A stretch of DNA of 45,143 nt. Origin: a virus. The stretch spans positions 1 to 45,143 of the IMG/VR virus record IMGVR_UViG_3300036945_000223, one strand, 5' to 3'. The notes under the pieces were generated by a model. That model made no database searches. It saw only the letters and a program-made list of their open reading frames with translations, and was not told where the DNA came from. Both the position numbers and the translations under genes were made by a program. Shown here in pieces: positions 39,688-43,629 of this stretch (its first letter is position 1; each line of letters starts with the position of its first letter).

Positions 39688-39912
39688 TTATCCCTTAGCG
39701 TAGTTGCGGAGGGTTTGCAGATAATCTGCCCTGTTGCCGTGGTTCTTGATGTTGCCTTGCCAAGCAACGACAACGATGCCACTACGTTTCTTGACACCTA
39801 GAAAGACACCCTTGTTGTCCGTGGTGCCGGCATACACGTGTTGTCCGGGTTGAATGTGACGCATAAGGGCGTGAGGGATTTCCCAGATATTGAAGGCAGG
39901 TTGGTATTGCAT
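39688..39912 (-). CDS. First gene of minus-strand unit (74 aa, unknown)
   Basis: The start at 39912 (MQYQPAFNIW) is preceded by AAGGGGAACAGC. The product shows strand-rich elements (QHVYAGTTDNKGVFLGVKKR, GIVVVAWQGN) and ends in a basic helix (RADYLQTLRNYAK). It could be a small beta domain. As the first gene downstream of the control region it is expected to be among the earliest expressed, hence a candidate host-takeover protein. No family is recognised. Confidence 0.6.
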   Translation of the reverse strand: MQYQPAFNIWEIPHALMRHIQPGQHVYAGTTDNKGVFLGVKKRSGIVVVAWQGNIKNHGNRADYLQTLRNYAKG

Positions 39913-40116
39913 GCTGTTCCCCTTGGGGTTTGTTGCGGTGAAGAAATTGTTGCCCAAGAATTACCAAGACAACATAGGGCAAACCCTAAGATCAACACAA
40001 AAGAAACTATCGGAGTCATTGACAAATTCTATTGGCCCTGGGCAACTAGATAAGTTACTCACGCGTACGCGCACGGGCGCACATGTTCCTAAGTTACCGT
40101 TAGCATTGGGGATTTT

Positions 40117-40147
40117 AATGCAAATGAGAATCATTCTTGTTCGCATT
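40117..40147. promoter_or_regulatory. Fur-box-like dyad
   Basis: A 31-bp imperfect palindrome spans this site: 12 of 15 base pairs are symmetric about C40132. Its core at 40120-40138 matches 14 of 19 positions of the classic Fur consensus (GATAATGATAATCATTATC). It lies upstream of the early minus-strand genes. Binding by host Fur is an inference from sequence alone. Confidence 0.45.
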
Positions 40148-40173
40148 GGCTGGGTGATGCTGGGTTCTCAAGT

Positions 40174-40305
40174 GTTAACACATATGTTATAACGCCAATG
40201 TATTATATAATACCCCTGCATACTCTTATATAAGACACATGACCAGTAGTATATAAGACATAATAGTACTCTTATATAAGACATAATAGTACTCTTATAT
40301 AAGAC
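40174..40305. repeat. Array of six AT-rich palindromes phased at 23 bp
   Basis: Six palindromes are centred at 40183.5, 40206.5, 40229.5, 40252.5, 40275.5 and 40298.5, exactly 23 bp apart. Three units share TCTTATATAAGA in an identical 16-bp block (40221, 40267, 40290). One is a perfect 14-bp palindrome (GTATTATATAATAC), one an 8-of-10 pair dyad around CATATG, and one is degenerate. No gene covers it. An operator array or replication origin is likely. Confidence 0.8.
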
Positions 40306-40312
40306 CTGGCCT

Positions 40313-40347
40313 ATTAGGGTAAACAATATCTAGGGTAAACCCTAATA
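40313..40347. repeat. TAGGGTAAAC direct repeats within an inverted repeat
   Basis: TAGGGTAAAC occurs at 40315-40324 and 40331-40340. ATTAGGG (40313-40319) is the inverse of CCCTAAT (40341-40347), and TAGGGT/ACCCTA form a tight dyad at 40331-40344. It follows directly on the palindrome array and may belong to the same control element. Confidence 0.55.
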
Positions 40348-40454
40348 ATACCCGGGGGTACCAAGGGGGTGGGGCTCGAGGGTTTATATTGCATAGCCCC
40401 TTGAATATCCCTCATAGAAATTATGGTGTCACAAAAGTACCCCAGAAATAACAA

Positions 40455-40474
40455 AGGGGCCTCAAAGGGCCCCT
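40455..40474 (-). terminator. Probable terminator downstream of the HNH gene
   Basis: AGGGGCC (40455-40461) pairs perfectly with GGCCCCT (40468-40474), loop 6 nt. Read on the minus strand it is followed by TTTGTTATTT, a usable U-rich tract; the plus strand lacks one. It would stop transcripts from the HNH gene before the palindrome array. Confidence 0.6.
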
Positions 40475-40534
40475 AATGTACACATTAATTAAATACTTAT
40501 AAATTGTTCACCTAGGAAAATTACTAGACACACT

Positions 40535-40710
40535 TTTCCCTTAAACCTAAAGAGAGCTAGTCTTTAAGTTTTAGGGAAATCTAGCAATTCAACTAGATGA
40601 ACAGGAGTCCAAGGTACATGGACGACGTGTCACCTGAGGGATCACTGAGACTCTAGGAACTCAACCATTCCTAGAACAAATCCCCCAGGCGTTAGCCAAT
40701 TCTGAGGGAA
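40535..40710. other. Run of hairpins in non-coding control region
   Basis: At least three stems occur in a row. The first has a 19-bp arm pair with two mismatches (40535-40553 with 40561-40579). Then come ATCTAG/CTAGAT (40579-40584 with 40593-40598) and TCTAGGAA/TTCCTAGA (40652-40659 with 40668-40675). GTCCA/TGGAC and a C-run/G-run pair add more. CTGAGGGA occurs twice. No open frame or tRNA explains it; a structured RNA is possible. Confidence 0.5.
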
Positions 40711-40783
40711 AAGTACACTTTGGCGTCCATCTATAAACCCCACCCGTTGTTAAGAAGTGGCAAAAGTCAATGGAACTGAGACG

Positions 40784-40815
40784 TTAGAGTAAAAGAATCA
40801 GGGAAAGTTCCTTAG
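40784..40815. repeat. Left 32-bp inverted repeat flanking HNH gene
   Basis: This is the inverse of 41347-41378. The outer 11 bp (TTAGAGTAAAA) and inner 13 bp (GAAAGTTCCTTAG) are perfect, and the 8-bp middle is diverged but of equal length, giving 26 of 32 identical. It contains the last codons and stop of the HNH gene. Confidence 0.8.
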
Positions 40816-41313
40816 ATTGGAAAATAAAAGGATCCAATCAAGGAATTCTTTTTCAGTGAATCCTGCTTTAGCCATGTTGCACTGTTTACAACAAGCTTGA
40901 AGATTTGCTTTTTTATGCTCTCCACCTCTAGACAGGGGAACAATGTGATCTATATGGCCTAAATCAATACAGTTACAGGGGCGTTTGCAATAAGCACAAG
41001 GTGTTTCAGGAATCGTCTTAATAAAAACTGCAAGCCACTTTTCATCGAAGTCAGATTCTAAAAATTTTTTTGGGTATTTTTTGTTAATCCCGGCTTGATG
41101 GGACTTGGCTCTACGTTTATGCCAGTTCTTTTCCTCCCACTCAGGATAGTGGTTGTAACTGTCTCCATGAAGTTCTTTACGCCTAGCTCTTTTCTTAATG
41201 CCAATTGCTTTTCGTTCTTCTGGCGTACGTTTATCCCACCATGTCTTCTGATGTTCTTTATTCTTTTTAGCTGAAGGCTCTTTAGCAATCATGCTATAAA
41301 TATTTAGTGTCAT
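40798..41313 (-). CDS. HNH endonuclease in control region
   Basis: The 171-aa protein has a very basic N-terminal half (KKRARRKELHG, KNWHKRRAKSHQAG) likely to contact DNA. The zinc-bound HNH core follows: C106/C109 (CAYCKRP), D122-H123 (GHIDHIVPLS), N137 (KKANLQAC) and C142/C145-N146 (CKQCNMAKAG). AGGAGAACAA precedes the ATG at 41313. The gene stands alone between the two transcription units and is bracketed by 32-bp inverted repeats, so it looks like a mobile or homing element. Confidence 0.85.
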   Translation of the reverse strand: MTLNIYSMIAKEPSAKKNKEHQKTWWDKRTPEERKAIGIKKRARRKELHGDSYNHYPEWEEKNWHKRRAKSHQAGINKKYPKKFLESDFDEKWLAVFIKTIPETPCAYCKRPCNCIDLGHIDHIVPLSRGGEHKKANLQACCKQCNMAKAGFTEKEFLDWILLFSNLRNFP

Positions 41314-41475: not shown

Positions 41476-43629
41476 ATGGCAAAGTTAACCTTAAATACAA
41501 TTGGTAGTCGTTATGGCAGCATTGATGCGCTTAACGATAACTTTGATGCCATTGAACAGGCCCTGGAGAATACCTTTAGCCTAGATGGCACCATTCCTAA
41601 TGCCTTAGAGGCTGATTTAGACCTAAATAACAATGACATCCTGAATGCTGGGGAAATTAGTACTGATACCCTACGTATTAATGGTGTGTTAGTTGAACCT
41701 ACAACTGGTGTCACTGCTGGTGCTGCCTTCCAAACCTATGAGTTTACAGCTACAGCAGGACAAACAACCTTCTCTGTCTCTCCTGCAACCCCTTATAACG
41801 CCTCTATTGTAGTCATTGTTAATGGACTACAGCTTTCTCCTGCTGAAGTATCTGTTTCTGGTACTAATATTATTACCCCCGCCCTCACTGTAGGGGATGA
41901 GGTTGTTATTCGACGTTATATAGCAGAACCAGTAGCTGCACCTGATGCCACAGAAATAAACTTTATTCAAGCTGGTACTGGTGCTATTACTCGTAATGTG
42001 CAGGAAAAGTTACGGGAGATTCCCACACTTGCAGATTTCAACGCGGGAACTTATTATGCCGAGAAAATAGCGGGCCCAATCTTACGTAATACATCGCTTG
42101 AAGCAACAGGAACAGCAGTAACCCTTGGTGCAGAGGTTAGAACTAATTACACAGGCAACGCACACGCAGCCGGAACAGTTGGCACAGTCACGATTCCACT
42201 GACGATTGCGGATTTTACCTTGTACCGAATCACGTTCACTCTGTCTACCACAGTCAACGGTAATGTTGCAATCACGGTGGGGGGCGTCAGCATCTTTGAT
42301 GACTACCCCGCTGGCCTTTTCTACAACACCGACACGATATTGGCAGATTCAATAGAGACTTCTCCAATTTTAAGTTCAACAGTATTTAGTTACGTCTACT
42401 TGTCGCGCAGTGGCTATAGCACTCCAACAAATATTGTATTTACTACAGATACGCTATGGGGGGGTAGTCTATCGGGTATCAGTGTAGAAGAAGTTAGTGA
42501 AATTGAGATGTCATTGGCAATGGCTAGTCAAGACGATCCACTATTACGTCAGCCTATTGGTCCCCGCACTCTTAAACTTGAATATGGAACTATTGGATTT
42601 GGCGACCGTTTGACAGTGGGTTCTATTAAGGCCCCAGCAAGTGCGGGTAATGGTGCGTGGAATACAGCCTTTGGTGTGCGTAGCCTTGCAAGTATGAATC
42701 AAGGTGTGCAGAACGTGGCTATTGGTCCAATGTGTATGATGTATACCGAAGGAAGTCATAACACTGCTCTTGGTTATAGTGCATTAAAATTTTCCGTAAA
42801 AGGGCAAGAGAACACGGCGCTTGGTTACAAGTCTTTTGCAGCAAACGGAACAGGTAGTGGAAATACGGGAGTAGGTTTTCGCACAGCAACAACGCAACTT
42901 CGTGGTGCTTATAATACTGCAATTGGACACACAGCTTTGCCAAGCGTTCAAGCAGGAGATTACAATACTGCAATTGGATATAGGGCGGGTATTGTTAATA
43001 TTGCAGGGTCTACAAATACCTACGTTGGTGCCTTGGCTGGATATGACACGGGTGGATCAGGCTCATACACAGGGCAAGTAGCCATAGGAGCGGAAACCCG
43101 TGTTTATGGAATTGAGTCCGTATCTATTGGACATCTTGCAAACGTAGGTACAACTGGTGCTCCTATAGCTAATGCAATTGCCATTGGTTATTTAGCTAGC
43201 ACAACTACAGCCGCAACAACAAAAATTGGCAATGGGCACACTGGCACCACATTAAGCGGAAAGCCTTTTTACAAGGTTAATTTTGTTAGTGACGCAACGG
43301 CAACAGGAATTACATATACCGCTGCACAGTTTGTAGCAGCCTCCTTACTAACTCGCACAGGACCAACAGGACCTGTAACAGATGTAACTCCCACTGCGGC
43401 TCAAATTGTTGCTGCAATTCCTGGATGTGAAGTAGGAACTGGGTATGACTTATGGATTCGCAATGGCAGCACAGGCACAATTACAGTATCTGGTGGAGCA
43501 GGCGTTGTAGTAAGTTTTACAAACACTATTACCGCAGGAAATACACGACACTTTAAGGTTAATGCTATTAATATTACACCGGGCTCTGAATCGGTAAATT
43601 TGGTGTGCATTTCACAAGCTGCAAATTAA
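41476..43629 (+). CDS. Tail fibre/spike with YadA-like head repeats
   Basis: This 717-aa protein starts behind AGGAACCTAA. Residues 90-180 (YEFTATAGQTTFSVSPATPY, VVIVNGLQLSPAEV, GDEVVIRRYI) form the virion-attached N-terminal domain common in podovirus fibres. A middle beta domain (about 200-360) follows. From about 390 to 600 there are repeats of roughly 14-28 residues of the form N(T/V)A(L/I/F)G..AL, as in the left-handed beta-roll of trimeric YadA-type adhesins. No S74 chaperone is recognised at the C-terminus. It is a likely receptor-binding trimer. Confidence 0.8.
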   Translation: MAKLTLNTIGSRYGSIDALNDNFDAIEQALENTFSLDGTIPNALEADLDLNNNDILNAGEISTDTLRINGVLVEPTTGVTAGAAFQTYEFTATAGQTTFSVSPATPYNASIVVIVNGLQLSPAEVSVSGTNIITPALTVGDEVVIRRYIAEPVAAPDATEINFIQAGTGAITRNVQEKLREIPTLADFNAGTYYAEKIAGPILRNTSLEATGTAVTLGAEVRTNYTGNAHAAGTVGTVTIPLTIADFTLYRITFTLSTTVNGNVAITVGGVSIFDDYPAGLFYNTDTILADSIETSPILSSTVFSYVYLSRSGYSTPTNIVFTTDTLWGGSLSGISVEEVSEIEMSLAMASQDDPLLRQPIGPRTLKLEYGTIGFGDRLTVGSIKAPASAGNGAWNTAFGVRSLASMNQGVQNVAIGPMCMMYTEGSHNTALGYSALKFSVKGQENTALGYKSFAANGTGSGNTGVGFRTATTQLRGAYNTAIGHTALPSVQAGDYNTAIGYRAGIVNIAGSTNTYVGALAGYDTGGSGSYTGQVAIGAETRVYGIESVSIGHLANVGTTGAPIANAIAIGYLASTTTAATTKIGNGHTGTTLSGKPFYKVNFVSDATATGITYTAAQFVAASLLTRTGPTGPVTDVTPTAAQIVAAIPGCEVGTGYDLWIRNGSTGTITVSGGAGVVVSFTNTITAGNTRHFKVNAINITPGSESVNLVCISQAAN

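Follow-up and report, generated by a model that had tools for sequence, protein, structure and literature searches.

A noncoding hub between the early and late modules

The window is the whole stretch of DNA analyzed here, the 45,143-bp record of a podovirus-like phage, whose genes include those for a terminase, a head-tail adaptor, an internal virion protein, PolA, a primase-helicase, a ribonucleotide reductase, and ThyX. The first gene of its leftward early/replication operon (39688-39957) belongs to phrog_21585, and upstream of it, in a noncoding hub, lies an array of short palindromes, some 220 bp from the start of that gene. The features of the hub are as follows (window positions).

39958-40797, no strand: noncoding hub between the leftward early operon and the HNH gene and rightward tail and terminase genes
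40177-40190, no strand: dyad AACACATATGTTAT, 5/7 symmetric, in register with the units but matching them at 6 of 14 positions only
40200-40213, no strand: SdhR-like operator unit 2, GTATTATATAATAC, with two symmetric changes relative to the consensus
40223-40236, no strand: SdhR operator unit 3, CTCTTATATAAGAC
40246-40259, no strand: SdhR-like operator unit 4, GTAGTATATAAGAC, left half degraded and right half intact
40269-40282, no strand: SdhR operator unit 5, CTCTTATATAAGAC
40292-40305, no strand: SdhR operator unit 6, CTCTTATATAAGAC
40260-40291, plus strand: linkers ATAATAGTA at 40260-40268 and 40283-40291, a degenerate version of ATAAGA(GTA), the outer half-box of relatives and host SdhR operators
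40331-40344, no strand: inverted repeat TAGGGTAAACCCTA, the second conserved motif of the hub, with a half copy at 40315-40324
40349-40481, no strand: conserved noncoding block of 133 bp with a G-rich tract, an AT-rich part, and a GGGGCC hairpin, 77% identical to the related phage L124

No DnaA box was found near the array in the window hub, and no replication initiator was recognized among the scanned window proteins, which include the helicase-primase and PolA. The cumulative GC-skew minimum (after rotation) falls at 42,446, 2 kb from the array, a position that is confounded by gene direction. A tRNA search returned none. A search for an RNA polymerase gene gave no match in the window, nor did it pick up its positive control. 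The array region had no megablast match among annotated phages, and in BLAST searches with the array, MW202796.1 was the only convincing match.

The array consists of copies of one operator at a 23-bp period

The preliminary description of this locus reported six dyads at a strict 23-bp period, and this is borne out by both position and score. The dyad centers lie at 40183.5, 40206.5, 40229.5, 40252.5, 40275.5, and 40298.5, a spacing of exactly 23 bp. The summed dyad score of units 2 to 6 is 30; when the whole window was dinucleotide-shuffled 300 times and all periods from 14 to 39 were scored, the maximum was 25, and 3000 local dinucleotide shuffles of the 160-bp array stretch also gave a best score of 25. 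Because the shuffles never reached 30, the array goes beyond chance.

The same description held that the palindromes vary and that the spacing is what is conserved. This view has to be revised, since the array comprises five palindromic units that are copies of one operator, three of them near-consensus (CTCTTATATAAGAC) and two weaker, together with one unrelated dyad in first position. With its few matches to the unit, that dyad is probably a coincidence in register and not an operator. A half-changed variant of unit 2, GTCTTATATAATAC, is found in the loci L203 and L420.

The units match the operator of the host regulator SdhR

SdhR, a GntR protein of the HutC subfamily, regulates TCA/sdh genes in proteobacteria, and its published operator is TCTTATGTCTTATATAAGACATAAGA (Suvorova et al. 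2015, PMC4494728). This operator contains the phage unit GTCTTATATAAGACATAAGA and includes, without any change, the unit of the relatives described below; across phage arrays, the match extends from the core to the flanking half-box. The window array matches the core palindrome of SdhR operators, GTCTTATATAAGAC, with three units differing from it by one terminal base, C for G, a change that is frequent among phage units (32 of 93). As for the outer half-box, two of the window linkers read ATAATA, one mismatch from ATAAGA, and the remaining linkers do not fit. Across phage arrays, the half-box TCTTAT/ATAAGA is present, exactly or with one mismatch, in 38 of 93 distinct linkers, compared with 1.6 in shuffled linkers, and it flanks the core in 17 of 27 host sites.

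Among 80 Burkholderiales genomes, 24 contain GTCTTATATAAGAC. When 23 sites outside Sapientia were examined, 17 were found beside a gntR/sdhR gene homologous to that of Sapientia (14 of these in the mdh/sdhR-sdhC divergon), 4 were upstream of the isocitrate lyase gene (aceA), and 2 were elsewhere. In Sapientia itself, where the regulator has GntR and UTRA domains and its gene is followed by sdhC, operator sites are present at mdh/sdhR-sdhC and aceA, and icd is preceded by the one-base variant CTCTTATATAAGAC, the exact form of window units 3, 5, and 6. The phage array adjoins phage early and late genes, not the TCA/glyoxylate genes of the sdhR regulon; it is an operator-like site and not a member of the host regulon.

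The binder had been expected to be either new or host derived, and the results favor the latter in a specific form. The window gave no match to a GntR gene (PF00392), and no SdhR homologue was found in any array locus (best SdhR match, E=1.9). A new phage-encoded binder is thus not supported. Because host operator sites match the array, and because neither the window nor the array loci encode such a protein, the binder is most likely the known host protein SdhR. The best cultured match to the primase is from a Limnohabitans phage (45%), and the host is a probable beta-proteobacterium of the Burkholderiales type.

The spacing is conserved in relatives and in unrelated phages

Primase relatives with 55-56% amino acid identity (L246, L255, L256, L258, and L259) carry two to five units, GTCTTNTATAAGACATAAGAGTA, at a 23-bp period, and L203 (primase, 74%) carries three units. 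Loss of the spacing in relatives had been named at the outset as the finding that would count against the array; instead, 23 bp is kept at about 55% primase identity and also in phages without detectable nucleotide similarity. Conservation of the array as such is less complete: L124 and L204-L208, although closely related, lack any SdhR-like site, so phages of this type can do without the array.

When IMG/VR was scanned for pairs of cores at a 23-bp distance, 74 stretches were identified, nearly all of them arrays of 2-5 units with differing linkers. Clustered by shared nucleotide sequence, these stretches form about 22 lineages, which are nucleotide-level groups whose hubs may in some cases share deeper ancestry. 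When the gap was left free (13-43 bp, start to start), pairs of TCTTNTATAAGA were found in 106 stretches, so that 23 bp accounts for about 70% of these (74 of 106 stretches hold a 23-bp pair). The 9-bp linkers vary widely between phage arrays with the same core and spacing, although in this comparison the search pattern itself dictated the core. An earlier pattern, pairs of TTATATAA at 23 bp, was too unspecific and was dropped. Related arrays at 30-bp (and 27-bp) spacing occur as a minority alternative to 23 bp in L020:153-254, L434, L427, and L439.

The tandem 23-bp pattern was found in only 8 stretches from 84,980 cellular genomes. Three of these are Bradyrhizobium matches with different outer bases in the core, and one is a Sapientia aquatica prophage (L464; G002:C58, about 107-142 kb), in which terminase, capsid, tail, and helicase genes lie on one low-GC stretch and the array has three sites with spacings of 37 and 23. 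This prophage offers a ready model, the host's own sdhR, aceA, and icd operators being known. A chromosomal use of the 23-bp spacing was seen in a Burkholderiales metagenome-assembled genome, in which two perfect SdhR operators 23 bp apart lie upstream of an H+-pyrophosphatase gene (L460:7102-7136).

DnaA boxes accompany SdhR operators in related hubs

Within 600 bp of the arrays, DnaA boxes (TTATCCACA) number 19 in 25.8 kb, whereas the rest of these loci, 196 kb in total, has 1, so that the boxes are about 140-fold denser near the arrays; 200 scrambled 9-mers near the arrays gave a mean of 0.22 and a maximum of 2. In L404/L414, L384, L229, L220, and L412, SdhR sites interleave with DnaA boxes or directly adjoin them. 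The association extends to single operators: at least 120 IMG/VR stretches have one SdhR core no more than 31 bp from a DnaA box, compared with 2 for a scrambled box. The gap between core and box is 7-9 bp in 88 of the 109 nonredundant loci among the matches listed, and some modules are symmetric (TTATCCACA-9-TCTTATATAAGA-8-TGTGGATAA). The loci among the matches listed fall into 8 nucleotide-level lineages, and because two of these, with 84 and 15 loci, dominate, the fixed register reflects common descent in part.

In 71 of 117 SdhR-DnaA loci among the matches listed, proteins homologous to those of the window were found, mostly to its primase-helicase, PolA, and phrog_21585, and the phrog_21585 homologue often lies a few hundred bases to 1.5 kb from the module. 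SdhR-like sites, DnaA boxes, or both were present in 12 of the 13 homologous hubs that precede the early gene p1392, and DnaA boxes in 7 of the 13. The side of the shared 133-bp block that bears the array in the window bears two DnaA boxes in L124. We also considered that the phages might have copied a host oriC, but rejected this, as the combined DnaA and SdhR module gave only 2 matches in 399 Burkholderiales genomes.

Since the hub in relatives carries clusters of DnaA boxes, which often interleave with SdhR operators or keep a fixed register to them, it most probably serves as a replication origin of the DnaA type or as an early control region. The initial suggestion of an origin or operator array, cooperatively bound by a dimeric protein, is partly supported, through the match to SdhR and through the DnaA clusters of related hubs; the window hub itself has no DnaA box.

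A proposed role for a host metabolic regulator at a putative phage origin

Host transcription factors at origins and phage use of host regulators are both known kinds of arrangement. At chromosomal origins, sites for CtrA in Caulobacter, Spo0A in Bacillus, and ArcA in Escherichia coli lie among DnaA boxes, and phages that use host DNA-binding regulators include coliphage 186 and CTXphi (LexA) and lambda and Mu (IHF). The hubs described here resemble the former in that regulator sites are interleaved with DnaA boxes, which suggests an analogy in how they work, and the latter in that a phage control region holds operators for a host protein. They differ from the chromosomal cases in that the putative origin is that of a phage and the regulator would be a metabolic (TCA) one of the host, and from the LexA- and IHF-using phages in the choice of a TCA-cycle regulator, in the tandem arrays, and in the position beside DnaA boxes. 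Relative to the SdhR operators described previously (PMC4494728), the phage sites have the same 14-bp palindromic core and outer half-box ATAAGA, and are of the same kind as those at mdh/sdhR-sdhC, aceA, and icd, but they form tandem runs of 2-6 with a 23-bp period or stand in register with DnaA boxes, and the noncoding hub that holds them has no TCA gene. Our searches of the open-licence literature found no report of phages using a TCA-cycle regulator in this way or of such arrays, and a full-text search of that literature for phage decoys or SdhR gave nothing relevant.

We favor, with moderate confidence, the explanation that the array is an SdhR-bound control element of a phage origin or early hub, built from tandem operators of the host TCA/glyoxylate regulator. 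On entry of the phage, pre-existing host SdhR dimers would load onto the array in a cooperative manner, and the loaded SdhR would control the hub upstream of the early/replication operon. By analogy with chromosomal origins, SdhR might gate the initiation complex or help to build it, and phage replication and early expression would then depend on the metabolic state of the host. The sequences themselves establish the array and its conserved spacing, the identity of the operator, the host regulon, and the co-location and register with DnaA boxes in relatives; we infer, rather than observe, that SdhR binds the phage DNA cooperatively, that the hub is an origin under SdhR control, and what the sign of that control would be. 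Because the window hub has no DnaA box and the skew minimum is not decisive, the proposal of an origin in the window phage itself rests on homology of position.

Several other explanations have to be weighed against an SdhR-bound control element. The array could be a sponge with no cis role, titrating SdhR as phage genomes multiply and thereby freeing TCA and glyoxylate genes and raising the supply of energy and precursors; in the same way, DnaA boxes and parS-like sites in other hubs would draw off the DnaA and ParB of the host. Several observations fit: near-consensus copies are many where hosts usually use one, arrays occur in lineages unrelated to each other, the same hubs gather sites for SdhR, DnaA, and a ParB-like protein, all three from the host, and the phages encode no binder. 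With so many near-consensus copies, and with ParB-type sites in a few of the hubs, this model stays alive, but we consider it unlikely. Titration needs neither the 23-bp spacing, nor the 7-9 bp DnaA register, nor confinement to the hub, all of which favor a cis role over a pure sponge, and with 2-6 sites per genome it would be effective only late, after replication. Slightly less likely still is a purely transcriptional switch, in which array-bound SdhR represses or activates an early hub promoter according to metabolic state and replication is uninvolved. In keeping with a switch, promoters are the usual targets of GntR proteins, the hub separates the early from the late module, and many arrays are in divergent intergenic regions; yet the distance from array to gene varies widely, the best promoter-like sequence in the L255 group lies more than 100 bp downstream of the array, and the fixed register with DnaA boxes is left unexplained.

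The tandem repeats of 20-25 bp near replication genes also recall the iteron origins of plasmids and phages, whose replication regions hold tandem direct repeats of about 20 bp, and a phage-encoded initiator could share the SdhR motif by coincidence. We judge this improbable: the units are palindromic one by one and, across phage arrays, match the host SdhR operator with its outer half-box, no GntR-like protein is present in the phages, and no cognate Rep gene was recognized among the scanned window proteins. The idea that the array is a functionless product of chance or slippage is the least credible of all, bordering on negligible. Duplication can yield copies within one lineage, as in L246 and L407, but between lineages the linkers are wholly different and the spacing is still 23, shuffles never attain the score, and matching operators lie upstream of host TCA genes.

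Beyond the control element proposed for the window, the origins of unrelated aquatic phages may have independently recruited SdhR for cooperative control, placing it at a fixed register to DnaA boxes or, in the window, on a tandem array in their stead, as a metabolic checkpoint or take-over absent from the sampled host chromosomes; we put this forward tentatively, at slightly less than even confidence. The data suggest that the onset of infection is tied to the metabolic state of the host in many aquatic phages, or that these phages exploit SdhR. For an anonymous phage repeat, the proposal names a concrete host protein and predicts the operator, the probable host group, and the physiological signal, namely the TCA state; if it is true, the coupling of replication to host metabolism by phages of freshwater and marine bacteria becomes directly testable. 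SdhR cores that repeat every 23 bp, or that stand 7-9 bp away from a DnaA box, may also serve as a signature of candidate phage origins and a hint to their hosts.

Additional sequence features of the hubs

Sites resembling the ParB-type parS (GTTnCACGTGnAAC), for which the chance expectation was estimated at about 0.3 in the 4.45 Mb scanned, occur in several SdhR-array loci (L258:516, L407:668, four copies in L383:440-3790, and L422:9965 and 10794) and in primase relatives with a DnaA box nearby (L278:4905 and L280:5836).

About a dozen loci carry the inverted repeat AGGGTAAACCCT or its half AGGGTAAAC in their array hubs and have almost no copy outside them (window 40315-40344, L384, L004, L007, L389, L416, L203, L255, L407, L414, L420, and L124). 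In 60 Burkholderiales genomes, AGGGTAAACCCT was about as frequent as a reversed control and had no common target gene.

G/C-rich strand runs, CCCCTCCCCC or GGGGGTGGGG, recur beside arrays across lineages (L246, L255, L043, L059, L203, L412, and others) and in the window at 40349-40375; they are possibly an origin feature.

The hub is adjoined by an HNH/endonuclease VII-like gene (40798-41313). The corresponding interval of L124 shows no homologue in the gene map, and the window gene may therefore be a homing-endonuclease insertion next to the putative origin.
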